DNA of 64,000 nucleotides from Cognaticolwellia sediminilitoris (GTDB lineage: Bacteria; Pseudomonadota; Gammaproteobacteria; Enterobacterales; Alteromonadaceae). Below the pieces are notes generated by a model. It did no database searches. It was given only the letters and a program-made list of their open reading frames with translations, and had not been told where the DNA came from. Of this stretch, positions 33,300-55,788 are shown one piece after another; positions within the stretch are counted from its first letter, which is position 1, and every line of letters begins with the position of its first letter. Location: NCBI GenBank assembly GCA_002104535.1, contig NBOG01000001.1, positions 466,867 through 530,866 of the forward strand. The letters are read 5' to 3'. The position numbers and the translations under genes were made by a program.

Positions 33300-33779
33300 C
33301 TAGTTTAAAGTCAGTTCAAACAGCTCAGATATATCTTCTTCAACTTTTAATATGTTTTTAGTGTTTGATGGTATTACTAAAACAGTATCGTCACCCGCTA
33401 TTGTGCCCATTATGCCGAAGGAACTTTCTAACGAGTCTAGTATTCTTGCGATTATAGGTGCTCCTCCAGCCCCGGTTTTAACAACAATTTGTGAGCCGTT
33501 ATTCACTATATTTAGTGCGATAGAGTCAATTGCATAGTTAACTTTTGGGATAATCATTTCATCAGGTAATTGATAAATAATTTTTTGATGGGCATTACGG
33601 CTTCTTATTGCCCCCACTTTTGTTAATAATCGAGAAACTTTCGATTGTGATATGCTTTCAAAGCCTCGAATTGAAAGTTCGTATGCTAGCTCTTCTTGAG
33701 AACGATATTCCTTTTCTCTCAGCATGACTTTAAATGTTTTGATTAAATCTTTCTCTCTTATTGCATTTAAATTTTGCAT
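33300..33779 (-). CDS. argR: ArgR family arginine-responsive repressor
   Basis: A 159-residue ArgR protein; E. coli ArgR has 156. The N-terminal winged helix carries the SQSKVSRLL recognition helix (about residues 43-51), and the C-terminal hexamerisation and arginine-binding domain has GAPIIARILDS and GTIAGDDTVLVIP with the two acidic residues that bind arginine. AAGGAG lies 6 nt before the ATG. It sits in a catabolic island, not beside mdh where the housekeeping copy usually is, and 14 nt after a 58-residue ORF, so it may be a second, island-specific copy. Likely targets are the nearby arginase and uptake genes. Confidence 0.88.
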   Translation of the reverse strand: MQNLNAIREKDLIKTFKVMLREKEYRSQEELAYELSIRGFESISQSKVSRLLTKVGAIRSRNAHQKIIYQLPDEMIIPKVNYAIDSIALNIVNNGSQIVVKTGAGGAPIIARILDSLESSFGIMGTIAGDDTVLVIPSNTKNILKVEEDISELFELTLN

Positions 33780-33793
33780 AACAGCTCCTTAAT

Positions 33794-33970
33794 TTAGTTG
33801 TAGCCAAGCACAAAATGGTTGGAATCTAAGTCCAATAACTTTTGAGGTTTATCTTCAAAACAGGCCGAAGTTACAGCGGAAAAAACTGGCTGTTTTTGAC
33901 TAGTTTGGCTGGTGTTTTCTTTTACTGTTTTTTCCTCTACTTCATCGATATATTCACTGCTTTTCATCAT
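33794..33970 (-). CDS. Small protein with C-terminal FVLGYN, upstream of argR
   Basis: A 58-residue reading frame starting MMKSSEYIDEVEEKTVKEN and ending LDLDSNHFVLGYN. It stops 14 nt before argR, so the two are probably one transcript. The protein is acidic and hydrophilic up to residue 30, contains one Cys (residue 37), has no Arg, and ends in a short hydrophobic tail. The same ending, with one Cys shortly before it, is found in the protein at 52569-52733. No family is known to me. The shared tail argues that both are translated. The upstream ribosome binding site is weak. Confidence 0.6.
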   Translation of the reverse strand: MMKSSEYIDEVEEKTVKENTSQTSQKQPVFSAVTSACFEDKPQKLLDLDSNHFVLGYN

Positions 33971-36806: not shown

Positions 36807-37922
36807 ATGAGAGTAGATGCCAACTTTGACGGCGGTAACATAGAAGTAGTGAACAGTGATTGCGCTAATAATATTAAGTTGAATATTCGCAAAGATACGC
36901 ATTCAGCTCATAAGCAATGGTTCTATTTTAGAGCATCAAATATTAAAAACGTTAACTGTCGATATATTATTGAAAATGCTGATGAAGCATCTTATCCAGA
37001 GGCATGGGACACCTGTACTATTGTGGCCTCTTCAGACCGAAAAATTTGGCGGAGAATAGCAACAAACTTTAATGGAAAAGAGCTTACTTTTTCAGATAAT
37101 AGTGCTCAAGCAATCTGTTATTATGCCCTGTTCGCGCCATATTCTTATGAACGCCATATGGACTTGATTGCGAAGTCTTTAACTTATCCTCAATGTTCCT
37201 TACTTAATGTTATTGAAACTGTTAATAAAAACCAGATAGAAGTTTTGCAAATTGGAACACCTTCAAGCGAAAAGAAATCTATTTGGGTTATTGCCCGCCA
37301 GCACCCTGCTGAAACGATGAGTGAATGGTTTATGGAAGGTTTATTAACACAATTATTGCAAGATGAGTCTGCTGACATTTTAACAGCAGCAACTTTTTAT
37401 ATTGTCACGAATATGAACCCTGATGGCGCTATTAATGGCAATCACAGAACAAACAGTAGCGGCTTAGATCTCAATAGAACTTGGCAATCACCTTGCGCTC
37501 AAAAAGCACCTGAATCTTTCTTTATTTTAGCGCTAATGAAACAGACAGGGGTTGATTTATTTCTCGATATTCATGGCGATGAAGACATCCCTTATACCTT
37601 TGCAGCAGGAAGTGAAGGAAACCCTGGTTATAGTGAACATATCGCTAATTTAGATAGTCGATTTAGACAGTACTACCATGAAGCGACATCGGAATTTGTT
37701 ATTGAAAATGGCTACCCAGATGATGAGCCAAATGAGGGAGATCTTAATATTGCTTGTAATCAAATTGGCTATTTATTTAACTGTTTATCATTAACCATAG
37801 AACTGCCGTTTTTAGATAATAAGTATCAACCCGAAGCAATTTTCGGCTCGACGCCTGAACGGTGTATAGCTCTTGGTATGAAAGCATTATCACCAATCAA
37901 AAGAATTTTACCGAGTATTTAA
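36807..37922 (+). CDS. M14 zinc carboxypeptidase, cytosolic type
   Basis: A 371-residue metallocarboxypeptidase without a signal peptide. An N-terminal beta-sandwich domain (about 1-120, starting MRVDANFDGGNIEVV) precedes the M14 catalytic domain. Zinc ligands are His166 and Glu169 in RQHPAETMSEW and His256 in FLDIHGDED; the general base is Glu332 in LTIELPF. Arg/Asn substrate-side residues lie in GLDLNRTW. This layout is that of the cytosolic carboxypeptidase (CCP-like) subgroup. It would trim C-terminal residues from imported peptides. Divergent from DUF917, with a 191-nt shared promoter region. Confidence 0.87.
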   Translation: MRVDANFDGGNIEVVNSDCANNIKLNIRKDTHSAHKQWFYFRASNIKNVNCRYIIENADEASYPEAWDTCTIVASSDRKIWRRIATNFNGKELTFSDNSAQAICYYALFAPYSYERHMDLIAKSLTYPQCSLLNVIETVNKNQIEVLQIGTPSSEKKSIWVIARQHPAETMSEWFMEGLLTQLLQDESADILTAATFYIVTNMNPDGAINGNHRTNSSGLDLNRTWQSPCAQKAPESFFILALMKQTGVDLFLDIHGDEDIPYTFAAGSEGNPGYSEHIANLDSRFRQYYHEATSEFVIENGYPDDEPNEGDLNIACNQIGYLFNCLSLTIELPFLDNKYQPEAIFGSTPERCIALGMKALSPIKRILPSI

Positions 37923-45318: not shown

Positions 45319-45600
45319 ATTTCATTCCTTTTACACACTTGAATATTTAAGCCTTCAATTCTACCCCATTATCTATAAATACACCTAAAAAAGTGTCCGC
45401 GCTTCTAGTCTCGGACGACATAAGCTCTTATAAAACCTATTATTTAATCAATCACGGACAAGTTGCAATAACACCACTTAGTTATCTTGTCATTGAGGAA
45501 GTATTAACAAAAACCTTGGTATTGTCCTTCACTAATATTTTTAACTAGCACTTTTGGCCTGTTCGACAGTGCCATAACATATTGAGAAATGGAGTTACAA

Positions 45601-46026
45601 ATGAGTTCAACAAATAGTACAGCGCAAGTTTTTGAAGATTTTCAAATTAACGTCAAACTAAAAATTTCGGCGCTTTGGATAGCGGTTATGTTTTGTTATG
45701 TCTATGGAGACTATATACAGATTTATGTACCTGGAATATTAGCAAAAGCGATGGAAGTTAAGGCGACAACTGAAACACAATTTCAGTTTTTTGCCGTGGC
45801 TGTATTGATGGCAATACCCAGTGTGATGATATTTTTTACCTTAGTGGTTAAGCCTAAAATCAATCGTTGGCTGAATATAATACTGAGCACGCTTTATATC
45901 ATTATGCTTATTGCAACTAATTTGACAGAAACTTGGGTGTTTTACCTATTTTTAACCGCAATAGAGGTTTTAATTTCAGTGGCAATTGTTTGGTATGCAT
46001 GGAACTGGCCGACAATTGAAGCTTAA
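45601..46026 (+). CDS. DUF6326 family membrane protein, copy 1
   Basis: A 141-residue protein with four predicted membrane segments, starting MSSTNSTAQVFEDFQ and containing the family pattern KLKISALWIAVMFCYVYGD. GGAG lies 6 nt before ATG 45601. An upstream in-frame ATG at 45589 overlaps that site, and the paralog shows that 45601 is the true start. Function unknown. Tandem paralog of 46235-46660. Confidence 0.82.
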   Translation: MSSTNSTAQVFEDFQINVKLKISALWIAVMFCYVYGDYIQIYVPGILAKAMEVKATTETQFQFFAVAVLMAIPSVMIFFTLVVKPKINRWLNIILSTLYIIMLIATNLTETWVFYLFLTAIEVLISVAIVWYAWNWPTIEA

Positions 46027-46234: not shown

Positions 46235-46660
46235 ATGAATGTGATAAAAAGTACATCGCAAGTTTTTAAAGGTTTTCAAATTAACGTCAAACTAAAAATT
46301 TCGGCGCTTTGGATAGCGATTATGTTTAGTTATGTCTATGGCGACTATATCGAGATTTATGTTCCCGGTGTAATAGCGAATGCGATGACAGTTAAATCAA
46401 GTATTAAAACTCAGCTGGAGTTTTTTGCCGTGGCTTTATTGATGGCAATGCCCAGTGTAATGATATTTTTTACCTTAGTGGTTAAGCCTAAAATCAATCG
46501 TTGGCTGAATATAATATTAGCTGCGTTTTATATCGTTTTACTCATTGCTGTAAATACTGAAGCAGGTTGGTGGTTTTACCTATTTTTAACCGCAATAGAG
46601 GTTTTAATTTCAGTAGCGATTGTTTGCTACGCATGGAAATGGCCGACACTTAAAGCTTGA
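46235..46660 (+). CDS. DUF6326 family membrane protein, copy 2
   Basis: A 141-residue paralog of the preceding gene, starting MNVIKSTSQVFKGFQINVK. The two proteins are nearly identical in the first membrane segment and in VVKPKINRWLNIIL, with changes concentrated in loops (residues 45-60) and around residue 110. GGAG precedes the ATG by 7 nt. Its stop runs directly into a siderophore-interacting protein gene fragment. Confidence 0.82.
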   Translation: MNVIKSTSQVFKGFQINVKLKISALWIAIMFSYVYGDYIEIYVPGVIANAMTVKSSIKTQLEFFAVALLMAMPSVMIFFTLVVKPKINRWLNIILAAFYIVLLIAVNTEAGWWFYLFLTAIEVLISVAIVCYAWKWPTLKA

Positions 46661-50351: not shown

Positions 50352-52022
50352 ATGAAAATTAAAATTATAAATCAGTTATTACTCTGCACGGTTTATCTAT
50401 TCTCTCACATCGGCTTTGCTAAAGAGTTTGCTGACGTTATTTATAGTAATGCTTCTGTATGGACTGGTAATTCATCACATCCCAATGCCTCTGCAGTTGC
50501 TATTAAAGGTAACGATATAATGGCGGTTAGTTCTTCAAATAATTTAGTAAGCCTTACCGGACCTAACACACATTTAGTCGACCTCAATGGCCGTTTTATT
50601 ATGCCTGGCTTTATCGATAATCATGTTCACTTTTTCGAAGGCGGCTTTGCTTTAGCTAGTGTTGATTTACGTAGCGCTAATTCACCCGAAGAGTTTTCAA
50701 AACGCATCGCGAACTATGCTAAAAAAAATCAAGAAGGACGTTGGATACTGAATGGAAACTGGGATCATGAAAACTGGGGAGGGGTGCTACCAAATAAAAA
50801 ATGGATTGATGACTCTACCCAAGGTAAACCTGTCTTTGTCATTCGCATAGATGGCCATATGGCATTAGCTAATTCTGCGGCCCTTGCCCTTGCAGGAATA
50901 ACTAAACATACTAAATCCCCTAATGGTGGCACAATCGTACATGATGAACATGGCGAACTTACCGGCATTCTAAAAGGTAATGCTTTAAATCTAATCCTTT
51001 CTATTGTGCCACCACCATCAGATGAAGAAGTATTAGAGTCATTTAAGCTTGCACAAGAACGTGCCTTAAGTGTTGGCTTAACCAAAGTTTTCGCCATGAC
51101 AGCTAACGAAACAGAAACCACAATGTTAGCGAATTTTCGTTTAGCACAAGTAAAAGGCAAAATGAAAATTAGGGCCTATGTTTATACGCCAATTGAACAT
51201 TGGCAAACATTAGAGGCTTTAGTGCAAAAAGAAGGTAAAGGCGATAATCAGCTTGGTTGGGGTGGTGTAAAAGGCTTTGTTGATGGTTCTTTAGGTGCCG
51301 CTACTGCATGGTTTTATAAACCTTACCTTAATAACCCTAACATTAATGGTGCTCCTCTAACGGAACCTAATGAGTTAAAGGAAATGATATCAGGCGCTGC
51401 TGATGCAAATTTAAGATTGGCAATTCACGCCATTGGCGATAAAGCAATTGATAATTTAATTACCGATTACCAAGACATTAGTGATGATATTACCCATTTA
51501 CGTTTACGTATTGAGCACTTTCAGCATCCAAATAAAACCGCCATCAATAAAATAAGTAAAAATAAAATTATCGCCTCCGCCCAACCATATCACGCAATCG
51601 ATGATGGCCGCTGGGCTGAAGAAAGTATTGGAGCTAAAAGGATAGAAACAACTTACGCGTTCAGAAGTATTATTGATAGCGGTGCTATTTTAACTTTTGG
51701 TTCTGATTGGCCTGTTGCCCCACTATCACCGTTAGAAGGTGTATATGCTGCTGTAACACGCCGTACAAAAGACGATAAAAACCCTAATGGTTGGTTACCT
51801 GAACAAAAAATTTCGGTTGAAGAAGCACTTACCGCATATACATCTGCAAATGCTTACGCTGGATTTGAAGAAGATAGAGTAGGAACACTTCAAAAAGGAA
51901 AACGCGCTGACCTTGTTATTTTATCTGCTGACCCCCGTAAAGTTGCGCCTGAAGAAATCAGAAATATTAAGGTATTAACTACCATTATTGATGGCGAAGT
52001 AGTATATCAATCAGCTAATTAA
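50352..52022 (+). CDS. Secreted amidohydrolase, YtcJ type
   Basis: A 556-residue metal-dependent hydrolase with an N-terminal signal peptide (1-23, ...FSHIGFAKE). It has the amidohydrolase-3 layout: first metal site DNHVHFFEGG, central GGVKGFVDGSLGAATAWF, RLAIHAIGDKAID, RIEHFQHP, and late TFGSDWPVAPLSP with the catalytic Asp, then KGKRADLVILSADP. Family members cleave amide or ester bonds in varied small molecules. Export suggests it acts on periplasmic substrate before uptake. Third gene of the operon, 44 nt after the antiporter. Confidence 0.88.
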   Translation: MKIKIINQLLLCTVYLFSHIGFAKEFADVIYSNASVWTGNSSHPNASAVAIKGNDIMAVSSSNNLVSLTGPNTHLVDLNGRFIMPGFIDNHVHFFEGGFALASVDLRSANSPEEFSKRIANYAKKNQEGRWILNGNWDHENWGGVLPNKKWIDDSTQGKPVFVIRIDGHMALANSAALALAGITKHTKSPNGGTIVHDEHGELTGILKGNALNLILSIVPPPSDEEVLESFKLAQERALSVGLTKVFAMTANETETTMLANFRLAQVKGKMKIRAYVYTPIEHWQTLEALVQKEGKGDNQLGWGGVKGFVDGSLGAATAWFYKPYLNNPNINGAPLTEPNELKEMISGAADANLRLAIHAIGDKAIDNLITDYQDISDDITHLRLRIEHFQHPNKTAINKISKNKIIASAQPYHAIDDGRWAEESIGAKRIETTYAFRSIIDSGAILTFGSDWPVAPLSPLEGVYAAVTRRTKDDKNPNGWLPEQKISVEEALTAYTSANAYAGFEEDRVGTLQKGKRADLVILSADPRKVAPEEIRNIKVLTTIIDGEVVYQSAN

Positions 52023-52568: not shown

Positions 52569-52733
52569 TTAGTTATAGCCAAGCACAAAACTATAATTCA
52601 GTGAGTCTGGCTCACACAAAAGAGACTCATTTTCTTTCGTCACTTTAGGTAAAATAATATCATCTGAGTTATCAATTTTTTGATAGTGTTCATTTTCTAC
52701 AGCTGTATCTTGGCAATCTTTTTTAGTTTTCAT
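52569..52733 (-). CDS. Small protein with C-terminal FVLGYN, near second TonB receptor
   Basis: A 54-residue protein from ATG 52733 (MKTKKDCQDTAVENEHY), ending CEPDSLNYSFVLGYN. AGG lies 7 nt before this ATG. An upstream in-frame ATG at 52775 would add 14 residues without a ribosome binding site. It is acidic and hydrophilic until the last ten residues. Its last residues (DS, then FVLGYN-stop) match the 58-residue protein upstream of argR, and both have a Cys some 8 to 20 residues before the tail. It lies downstream of the second TonB receptor gene on the same strand, separated by 475 nt and a hairpin. Confidence 0.6.
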   Translation of the reverse strand: MKTKKDCQDTAVENEHYQKIDNSDDIILPKVTKENESLLCEPDSLNYSFVLGYN

Positions 52734-53033
52734 ATTATGGCCTGTTTTAACAAGTAATCTATACTTTTTCTTCATATTTTAAGTAAATTTAGAGTCAGTA
52801 CTTTTTAAGACAATCAAAAATTAATTTAACTTTTTTTACTCACTGATAACGATAAAATGTTTCCTTAGATTCAATTTTTTGAATTTAGACTTCTATATCT
52901 GCCGGGTAATTTGTCACTCTAAGGCTAACTTGTTGCTAGTCTATATCAGTGTATTTTCATACCCTTATGACTATTATTATTAACTCCAATAATATTAAGC
53001 TCTATTATTGTAATAAAAAATCCCTTTTTTATA

Positions 53034-53208: not shown

Positions 53209-55788
53209 TTAAAATTTATATGTTGCTTTCACGTAGTAATAACCGCCATTAAAGTCAAAAGGACCACTTTCGTAATACTTTGAACCAAAAAATAGCGTTG
53301 GTATTGAATCTGCCGCTGTCTTATGAGCTTCCTTATCTAACAAGTTGTTCGCTCCAAAACTTAATATGACGCTATCGTTAACGAAATAACTCATTTCGGC
53401 ATCAAACGTGACGGCAGAGTCTGCGGTATCGGGAAATTCTCCAGCAATTGTTGCTAGATATTCTCCAAAATAATTAGCTCGCACAAACATACTGAAAGAA
53501 TCCCATGACTGAGCAACTGTAAATGTTGCACGATGCTCTGGAATACCTTTTTCTATGTTCTCAATCTGAAAATCAGAGGTCGCTACAGCATGCCTTGCAT
53601 CCACTTCTGTTTCATTCCAGTTGTAGATAAAGCTAAACTGAGTATCCCCGTTAAATAACTCCATACTGTAATTAGCTACAACATCAATACCTTGAGTCGT
53701 GGTATCAAAGTCGTTAACAAAATACTGAATTTGATCAAACTGTTCTGGGTTACTTACCCCAATAGCACGTAAGCCTGTATGATCAGTATCTAAAACTTCA
53801 ATGGGGGAGGTTCTTGATAAGTGATCTGTTATATCAATTTTATAAACATCAGCAGTGAAGAAGAACTCACCTTCTTGAAAAACCAAACCAAATGCATAAC
53901 TTTCAGATTCTTCAGGTTCTAACTGTTCAGCACCATAGAATGCAGATACTGGATCTGTGGCGGGATAAGTACCGGTTGTGGCAAGCCCTAAGCCTGACTT
54001 GAAAATGGTAGAAGTATTAACAACATTTTCTTGTCCTACGGTCGGAGCTCTAAAGCCTGTAGTAGCTGAACCACGAAAGGAAAGCTGATCCGTGATTGAA
54101 TATTGAGCAGAAAATTTATAATTGAATGTATCACCAAATGACGAGAAGTCTTCATACCGCAGTGCCGTGCCTATCATGAAGTCATCACTAAGATAGATTT
54201 CTACATCAACATAAGCAGCAAAGCTTCGTCGAATATTCTCACCTTGGGCTTGCGGAGAAAATCCAGGGAAACCATCAGAGCCGATACTAAAGCCCTGTTC
54301 CGCAAAATTGCCTATTTCCCATGAAGACTCCTCACCTGACACTATTTCAAAACTCTCTTCACGCCATTCAAGACCACCGGCAACATTAATCGGATCATCG
54401 AGACCGATTCCAATAGATTTAACCACGTCAAAGTTAAATGCTTTTTCAAGTTGGATATATTTACCCACCTCAAATTGATGATCTATTGGTTGATTAGGCC
54501 CTAATGAAGGATTAATGGTATTTCCAATAAAGTAACTAGAAGCATTTCTACCAACGGTGCCACTTAAATCATAAAGAACCTCATCAAGAATACCGCCATT
54601 GACTTCGCCTTTTATACCGATAGTAAGTGCAGTATCAACTATGTTGCCACCAAATTGAGGCGTATAACCGCCGGGAAACATTTCACTAAAAGCAAAACAG
54701 TTTTGACCTACAGCAGTATTTGGATTGGCAATCAACCCGTAGTCATCATGAGATAAAACATTTTGAAAATCACTGATTACATTAGGGCATTCAATACCAG
54801 AGCCAATTCCATCAATATCACCGACTAATACATTTGTTTCGTCTGCTATAAAACGACCTAGAAAGAATGGATCGATTGGACTACGATAGAAAAATCCATT
54901 TTTTACATCCCGCTCAGAGTAATTACCAAATAAATAAAACTCTCTGTCATTTCCCAAATCTAAACCCACATTAGCAAAAAGCGTTATATCATCTTTAATT
55001 TCTGGATTCCCCCAAATTTGAGCCGGGTCATTTATGTGTGTATTGCCATCAGCAATAAGGTCCAATGCATCAAGGCCTTGAACACTTCTGCTGGTTGGAT
55101 CAGCATTTTTAAATTGAAAACTTAAATTAACAAAACCGTCAGCGGTAAATGGCAAGCCAATATTTCCGTCAACAACAGTCGATGCGCCATCTCCTTCAAA
55201 ATATTCACCTTGTTTAATAGATAAAGAACCGCCATCAGCAGCATCCTTTAAAACAAAGTTCATTACGCCGGCAATAGCATCAGATCCATATTGTGCAGCA
55301 GCGCCATCTCGTAAAACTTCAACTTGTTTCAATGCTACACTGGGGATGACCGAAATATCAGGACCTTGCGCTCCATCATTAATCCCCCCCCCAATAAATG
55401 TAATGACTGAAGCTCTATGACGACGTTTTCCGTTAACTAAAACCAGCGTACTATCTGAAGAAAGGCCTCGTAAGTTTACTGGTTTAATTAATGCCGCAGA
55501 GTCACCACTTGCTTGAGCACGTACATTAAATGACGGTACTGCACTCACTAATTGATTAAGCATATCGCTAGACCCTGACCTCCCAAGTTCTTCTCCACCA
55601 ATAACATCTATTGGTACAGGAGAGTCAGCAATAGAGCGTGGAGAGGAGCGTGAGCCTACTACAACAATTTTTTCAACGTCCCTTTCACTTTGAACTGTTT
55701 CTTCTGCGGCATGAACATATATAGGCATTCCTCCTATAGCCATAGCTACAGATAAAGTAACTATTTTAACATTAAAATTACACGTCAT
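53209..55788 (-). CDS. TonB-dependent receptor (859 residues)
   Basis: Outer-membrane transporter with a signal peptide (1-27, ...YVHAAEE), a TonB box (VEKIVVVGSRSS), a plug domain with VPIDVIGGEELGRSG and LRDGAAAQYGSDAIAGVMNF, and a barrel with long extracellular loops containing four Cys residues (GIECPN, VGQNCFAF). It ends YYVKATYKF with the terminal Phe. It resembles the larger receptors of Alteromonadales that take up oligomeric carbon or nitrogen sources. Divergent from an Lrp/AsnC gene, as is the first receptor. Ligand unknown. Confidence 0.87.
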   Translation of the reverse strand: MTCNFNVKIVTLSVAMAIGGMPIYVHAAEETVQSERDVEKIVVVGSRSSPRSIADSPVPIDVIGGEELGRSGSSDMLNQLVSAVPSFNVRAQASGDSAALIKPVNLRGLSSDSTLVLVNGKRRHRASVITFIGGGINDGAQGPDISVIPSVALKQVEVLRDGAAAQYGSDAIAGVMNFVLKDAADGGSLSIKQGEYFEGDGASTVVDGNIGLPFTADGFVNLSFQFKNADPTSRSVQGLDALDLIADGNTHINDPAQIWGNPEIKDDITLFANVGLDLGNDREFYLFGNYSERDVKNGFFYRSPIDPFFLGRFIADETNVLVGDIDGIGSGIECPNVISDFQNVLSHDDYGLIANPNTAVGQNCFAFSEMFPGGYTPQFGGNIVDTALTIGIKGEVNGGILDEVLYDLSGTVGRNASSYFIGNTINPSLGPNQPIDHQFEVGKYIQLEKAFNFDVVKSIGIGLDDPINVAGGLEWREESFEIVSGEESSWEIGNFAEQGFSIGSDGFPGFSPQAQGENIRRSFAAYVDVEIYLSDDFMIGTALRYEDFSSFGDTFNYKFSAQYSITDQLSFRGSATTGFRAPTVGQENVVNTSTIFKSGLGLATTGTYPATDPVSAFYGAEQLEPEESESYAFGLVFQEGEFFFTADVYKIDITDHLSRTSPIEVLDTDHTGLRAIGVSNPEQFDQIQYFVNDFDTTTQGIDVVANYSMELFNGDTQFSFIYNWNETEVDARHAVATSDFQIENIEKGIPEHRATFTVAQSWDSFSMFVRANYFGEYLATIAGEFPDTADSAVTFDAEMSYFVNDSVILSFGANNLLDKEAHKTAADSIPTLFFGSKYYESGPFDFNGGYYYVKATYKF

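Follow-up and report, generated by a model that had tools for sequence, protein, structure and literature searches.

The two small genes of the window

The window, by which we mean the whole stretch of 64,000 nucleotides of Cognaticolwellia sediminilitoris DNA that was analysed, contains two small frames on the minus strand, of 58 and 54 residues, which both end in FVLGYN followed by a stop codon, as an earlier note on this DNA had claimed. The frames are 18.6 kb apart (the note gave about 19 kb), and they and the relevant features around them are located as follows.

33300..33779, minus strand: argR-like regulator downstream of gene 1 (Pfam Arg_repressor and Arg_repressor_C)
33794..33970, minus strand: small gene 1, 58 aa, ending in FVLGYN
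33797..33814, minus strand: FVLGYN tail codons of gene 1
36807..37922, plus strand: neighbouring M14 peptidase of the cytosolic-carboxypeptidase type (Pfam)
50352..52022, plus strand: amidohydrolase (Amidohydro_3), convergent with gene 2
52569..52733, minus strand: small gene 2, 54 aa, ending in FVLGYN; an alternative upstream start at 52775 is possible and would give 68 aa
52572..52589, minus strand: FVLGYN tail codons of gene 2
53209..55788, minus strand: TonB-dependent-receptor-like gene upstream of gene 2 (assigned by eye and BLAST clustering, not by Pfam)

The gap between the stop codon of gene 1 and the start of the argR-like gene at 33779 is 14 nt, in agreement with the earlier description, and gene 1 may be controlled together with this neighbour. 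The identification of the neighbour as argR held in part: its product matched both Arg_repressor Pfam domains but scored just below the NCBIfam cut-offs for ArgR (170 vs. 194 bits and 112 vs. 130 bits). Two other shared features had been proposed for the small proteins, a single Cys and an acidic character. The product of gene 2 has two Cys (residues 7 and 40) and 32 of the 70 non-redundant relatives described below have none; Cys is therefore not a feature of the family. Acidity fared better, as 57 of the 70 carry a negative charge, but it does not extend to the rest, 10 of which are positive.

Among the 228 frames of at least 40 aa in the window, FVLGYN was the sole terminal hexapeptide in common, and none of 60 dinucleotide-shuffled windows had a terminal hexapeptide shared between frames of that length. 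When the length filter was removed, the real window had shared stop-ended hexamers, but so did shuffles, and thus frame length matters to the comparison. Throughout the genome of this organism the stop-ended tail pattern, with one mismatch allowed, was found at the two window genes only. Hub mimicry was considered and set aside; the only third [F/Y]VLGYN of the genome lies inside a receptor-like protein.

The segment from 31241 to 55788 appears to be an amino-acid catabolic island, with genes of the argR-like, M14, arginase, ornithine-cyclodeaminase, purine-type permease, amidohydrolase, Na/H antiporter and DUF3422 families. Within it, the products of the adjacent frames 45589-46026 and 46235-46660 (145 and 141 aa) closely resemble each other and are of membrane type, and the pair is likely a tandem duplication.

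Relatives with the same tail

The homologue search that the earlier note had recommended showed the tail to be shared by numerous relatives, and in a large part of these the neighbouring genes are conserved as well. The tail [Y/F/C][V/I]LGYN-stop ended 73 small frames in the 71 loci examined, and a plausible small tail gene was present in 18 of the 52 sampled genera of the family, one of which (L124) rests on a TTG start. A back-translated search for FVLGYN-stop gave matches in 4 of 17 genomes of the genus and 27 of 295 genomes of the family, at 30 places in the latter compared with 8 for the reversed control; 26 of the 30 ended a small frame, and four (L012, L016, L028, and L031) did not. Variants with Y, C, or I recurred among the matches listed in a one-mismatch search, and the pattern admitting Y, F, or C in the first position was found at 83 places (14 for the reversed control) in 67 of the 295 genomes and 22 of the 52 genera. 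At the level of the order, where the search was confined to the F-tail pattern, a match was found in 1 of 271 genomes outside the family, in a frame of 25 codons. A scan of a species-genome collection for YVLGYN-TAA gave 98 stretches, and in 38 of the 80 loci listed the match ended a frame of at least 49 aa. Of these 38, 32 bore Colwellia, Thalassotalea, Thalassomonas, Litorilituus, or Alteromonadaceae names, several being genomes seen already; the other six came from three Shewanella, Sessilibacter, and two unassigned MAGs. Methylococcales frames ending in YVFGYN were set aside by eye. On viral contigs, 74 loci contained 51 tail matches, none of which ended an ATG-initiated frame of at least 30 aa, and we rejected a phage origin on that basis.

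The tail could also be approached from its genomic place. Five of 34 genomes scored as tail-negative or as carrying an I variant, a set that includes two genomes with I-variant tails (G001 and G207), contained a relative of the D-aminoacylase discussed below. In G001 and G207 a gene with a variant tail occupied the same place beside this relative; the YILGYN variant of G001 was found by place instead of by tail, and the FILGYN variant of G207 by the one-mismatch search and then again by place. In the remaining three (G155, G174, and G192) the 4.5-kb locus around the D-aminoacylase relative contained no tail gene.

Several loci were treated separately. L091, L102, L128, L129, and L131-L136 (chance or unrelated frames, or no pattern match) were left out before neighbour clustering, as were L125 and the contig-end loci L113 and L115; the last two were restored in the sequence sets. 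The frame at L053 (39 codons, no start) is counted among the 73 frames and not among the 72 used below, and L019 and L020 are 3-kb loci.

Reduction of 92 members to a non-redundant set left 70 proteins of 42-82 aa, in which S, N, E, T, and K are abundant. Their bodies are hydrophilic and fall into small subfamilies between which no alignment was possible; a weak trend before the tail consists of a short hydrophobic patch, acidic residues 11-12 positions short of the C-terminus, and, in many members, S, N, or C directly before the tail. The tail is the one feature shared by all members; its invariance is in part a product of how they were selected, because they were found through it. Similarly, start codons were picked partly by ribosome-site score, and this score consequently gives the starts no independent support. 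In one type of locus the bodies differed between genera while place and tail stayed constant. None of the 70 proteins had a strongly hydrophobic stretch (15-aa hydropathy above 1.6) of the kind expected at the N-terminus of a Sec-exported pheromone, which weighs against the suggestion of exported signal peptides as far as a Sec-type signal is concerned.

Synonymous variation was present at each codon of the tail, and all three stop codons were used. For the bodies, dN/dS was at most 0.58 in the 20 of 21 close pairs, not independent of each other, for which it was defined. Close relatives are under purifying selection, and the lack of selection that the earlier note had named as grounds for doubt was not seen. 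The shuffles, the dN/dS of close pairs, and the viral-contig search together led us to reject chance or a frame artefact as the source of the shared tail. These are real genes, selected at the protein level, with a fixed tail and upstream regions of different classes.

Neighbouring genes and upstream sites

Tail genes stood alone or at the end or start of catabolic operons. In 28 of 72 cases the tail gene converged, within 4 kb, on a D-aminoacylase-like amidohydrolase gene, which was usually the last gene of an operon in the order TonB receptor, M14 peptidase, amidohydrolase; the Pfam basis of these operons is one M14 protein and one amidohydrolase that were scanned. The M14 subtype recurring beside relatives of the window genes is not the cytosolic-carboxypeptidase type of the window. 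Within the stretches fetched, 34 of 71 loci contained a member of the M14 cluster, 33 a TonB gene, 31 an amidohydrolase of this kind, 17 a DgcN gene, and 16 a GltS gene. At L081, for example, the order was dgcA, dgcN, LysR, gltS, then tonB, M14, D-aminoacylase, and then the tail gene, and one DgcN and one DgcA from such loci scored 499 and 428 bits, above their respective NCBIfam cut-offs of 480 and 400. Other settings, named by eye, were gabD-gabT-like genes beside the tail genes of L047, L051, and L112, a permease operon with an N-formylglutamate-deformylase-like gene at L006 and L048, putrescine-type genes at L084 and L087, and a gap between MscS and M3-peptidase genes; several loci had no clear amino-acid theme. 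A cluster of large proteins occurred near the tail genes of L079, L083, L085, L086, L088, L090, L095, and L096; the one scanned, from L079, carries a PGA_cap domain (poly-gamma-glutamate capsule type) and a carboxypeptidase-regulatory domain.

Two classes of upstream site were seen among the 70 non-redundant members. Class A, an operator-like variant repeat located mostly 89-130 nt before the start, preceded 26 of the 70 genes compared with 0.68 in shuffles, and class B, a sigma-54-like -24/-12 site, preceded 14 with 0.58 expected; because both patterns were composed after viewing these same sequences, and related promoters are not independent, these enrichments are descriptive. The classes were exclusive, no gene having both sites, and 32 of the 70 belonged to neither, among the genes in neither class being both window genes. 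Class A went with a nearby D-aminoacylase-like gene (23 of 30 vs. 6 of 42; p 1.1e-7 by Fisher's test, with no correction for kinship).

Repeats of the TATAACCTNAGGTTATA type, searched with a somewhat loose pattern, were also found upstream of 24 of 36 TonB-cluster genes, 9 of 16 gltS genes, and 9 of 17 dgcN genes, compared with 3 of 498 unclustered genes. They are of the T-N11-A kind, which is the kind used by LysR regulators. In 21 loci a near-perfect repeat preceded the TonB start by 110-163 nt; the window contained none. Near-perfect copies of TATAACCTNAGGTTATA preceded TonB, gltS, and dgcN genes at L045, L080, L081, L085, L092, L105, L118, and others. TATAACCTNAGGTTATA looks like the operator of a D-glutamate regulon, and the similarity between the variant repeat of class A tail genes and the repeats before neighbouring TonB-receptor, gltS, and dgcN genes suggests that all of these may be members of it. 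Among tail genes the repeat, in its variant form, belongs to class A only, and neither window gene has it.

For class B we considered LuxO as a common activator. PMC10162802 quotes the LuxO site as TTGCAWWWTGCAA, and perfect copies of TTGCAWWWTGCAA were present upstream at L007/L008, L038, and L100. When 19 candidates were scored per genome, LuxO-like matches (E 1e-120) were found in 4 of 11 class B genomes tested and none was above the cut-off; LuxO as an activator common to class B is not supported by these matches. The tail genes of L036, L093, L100, and L123, which form a subfamily with an N-terminal RLILS-like motif, all have a sigma-54-like site.

Operators for ArgR, CRP, NtrC, Fur, and LexA were not enriched over shuffles upstream of tail genes, and the sigma-70 consensus was rarer there than in shuffles. 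A loose sigma-54 scan gave no clear overall enrichment (26 vs. 15-26), whereas the position-restricted form was enriched. In an RNA-family search of seven class B loci, only a TwoAYGGAY RNA at L093 17624-17734 exceeded its gathering score, and in positions 28000-58500 of the window the same kind of search gave one weak match, far below gathering score.

Possible functions of the tail

The two window frames are probably members of an undescribed, probably cytosolic family of small proteins. For ten representatives, neither Pfam nor NCBIfam gave a match above cut-off (weak matches, few in number, had E values of 0.12 to 0.17), and membership in a known family was rejected on this result; a 21-aa tail query matched no PDB sequence. 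The strings FVLGYN and YVLGYN did not occur in the literature searched, a search on Colwellia small proteins brought up one paper, on CydX, and no description of a network with a shared tail was found in the literature and family searches.

Of the three readings offered by the earlier note, a shared partner-binding tail fits best, although no partner was found. We tentatively favour the view that these are small effectors, every one made under a regulon of its own, and that they dock on one partner through their common tail. The invariance of the tail on variable bodies is what points to docking, and the change of body between genera, with place and tail staying constant, suggests that the tail is the active part. 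The body would then be a flexible, replaceable tether, and these bacteria would possess a single receptor on which the tail docks. In the presence of its substrate, each regulon would produce a copy of its own, and the output of all copies would be the same, for example the tuning of an enzyme of glutamate or nitrogen metabolism. That different promoters make the same tail suggests several inputs and one output. A wider form of this idea, about which we are more doubtful, is a convergence system of marine Gammaproteobacteria that works after translation: separate regulons would each supply their own disposable small protein, all of them bearing one hexapeptide plug at the C-terminus, and different nutrient signals would thereby act by way of a single receptor; with the same reserve, these regulons would be the D-glutamate class, the sigma-54 class, and the genes beside GABA, putrescine, and arginine loci. 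If one receptor does read the tail, ocean bacteria that recycle D-amino acids would have a new means of linking their nutrient regulons. No part of bacterial genomes is less charted than the small proteins, and this family offers a clean handle on them, since the six-residue tail can be synthesised for use as bait and the candidate control sites indicate under which conditions to look.

The docking reading has four rivals, which are made less likely by the enzyme classes that are not universal, the 53 of 73 tail genes with no co-directional gene within 300 nt downstream, and the lack of a Sec-like stretch. In the strongest, which we consider unlikely, the tail would be the core and the body the leader of a peptide, cofactor, or pheromone that is made by the ribosome and then modified; an enzyme or protease encoded elsewhere would cut or modify [Y/F]VLGYN, and many loci would in this way yield one product. 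The genes are short and resemble those of precursors, with a C-terminus that stays fixed; there can be several copies in one genome (three each in G179 and G203), and some subfamilies have leader-like motifs such as LFESSxxYR or RYFDL, all of which is consistent with this reading. The RiPP precursor MftA of mycofactocin is likewise short, with a C-terminal core as its fixed part; the tail proteins differ from it in having no common leader. They also have no strongly hydrophobic stretch. SPASM proteins were found in 14 of 40 tail-positive genomes and in 10 of 30 scored negative (G001, with its variant tail, is among these 30, which also served in the LuxO comparison), MbnB/DUF692-type proteins in 27 and YcaO in 35 of the 40, and the window's own genome had neither a SPASM nor an MbnB-type match. 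A simple motif scan found no recurrent radical-SAM gene among the locus proteins. As none of the three enzyme classes searched is present in all 40 tail-positive genomes, the precursor reading of the earlier note is weakened.

A lower probability attaches to the tail being a C-degron or a targeting tag (for a protease, compartment, or complex) that sets the life or place of unrelated small proteins. A very short invariant end on unrelated, disordered-looking bodies is what such a signal would look like. Degrons, however, usually occur on large proteins too, and among the matches listed and read from the 295 genomes the tail was on small frames only; a 361-aa protein ends in FVLGYS.

Less probable again is a regulatory leader peptide, in which the nascent tail would stall the ribosome at the stop codon and control the downstream gene. 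The conserved residues directly before the stop recall TnaC, a metabolite-sensing leader peptide with conserved residues in that position, and 20 of 73 tail genes, including 7 of the 14 sigma-54-class genes and gene 1 of the window, have a co-directional gene start within 300 nt downstream. Unlike TnaC, the other 53 have no co-directional gene within that distance, 28 of 72 converge on the D-aminoacylase-like gene, terminator-like hairpins followed the tail gene in a minority (8 of 67 vs. 1-3 in shuffles), and the bodies, at 42-82 aa, have a length unusual in leader peptides.

Hardly plausible is a carrier like LysW, a small, mostly acidic amino-group carrier protein with the fixed C-terminus EDWGE, to whose C-terminus a ligase would join substrates for release by hydrolases such as the neighbouring M14: the tail proteins are also small, mostly acidic, and fixed at the C-terminus, and in 34 of 71 loci an M14/AstE-like hydrolase is encoded nearby, but the other 37 loci lack that M14, the clusters found in at least four loci included no ligase, the body is not conserved, the M14 and D-aminoacylase appear from their signal-like N-termini (judged by eye) to be exported, unlike the small protein, and all 70 members end, by selection, in [Y/F/C][V/I]LGYN, with a terminal Asn in place of Glu.

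Among known systems, the dgcN-dgcA genes for D-glutamate catabolism in marine bacteria, the regulator of which is named DgcR, also come close. We know of no tail gene described in that system; in some of our loci, class A tail genes lie near dgcN and dgcA and have an upstream repeat similar to that of the TonB, gltS, and dgcN genes.
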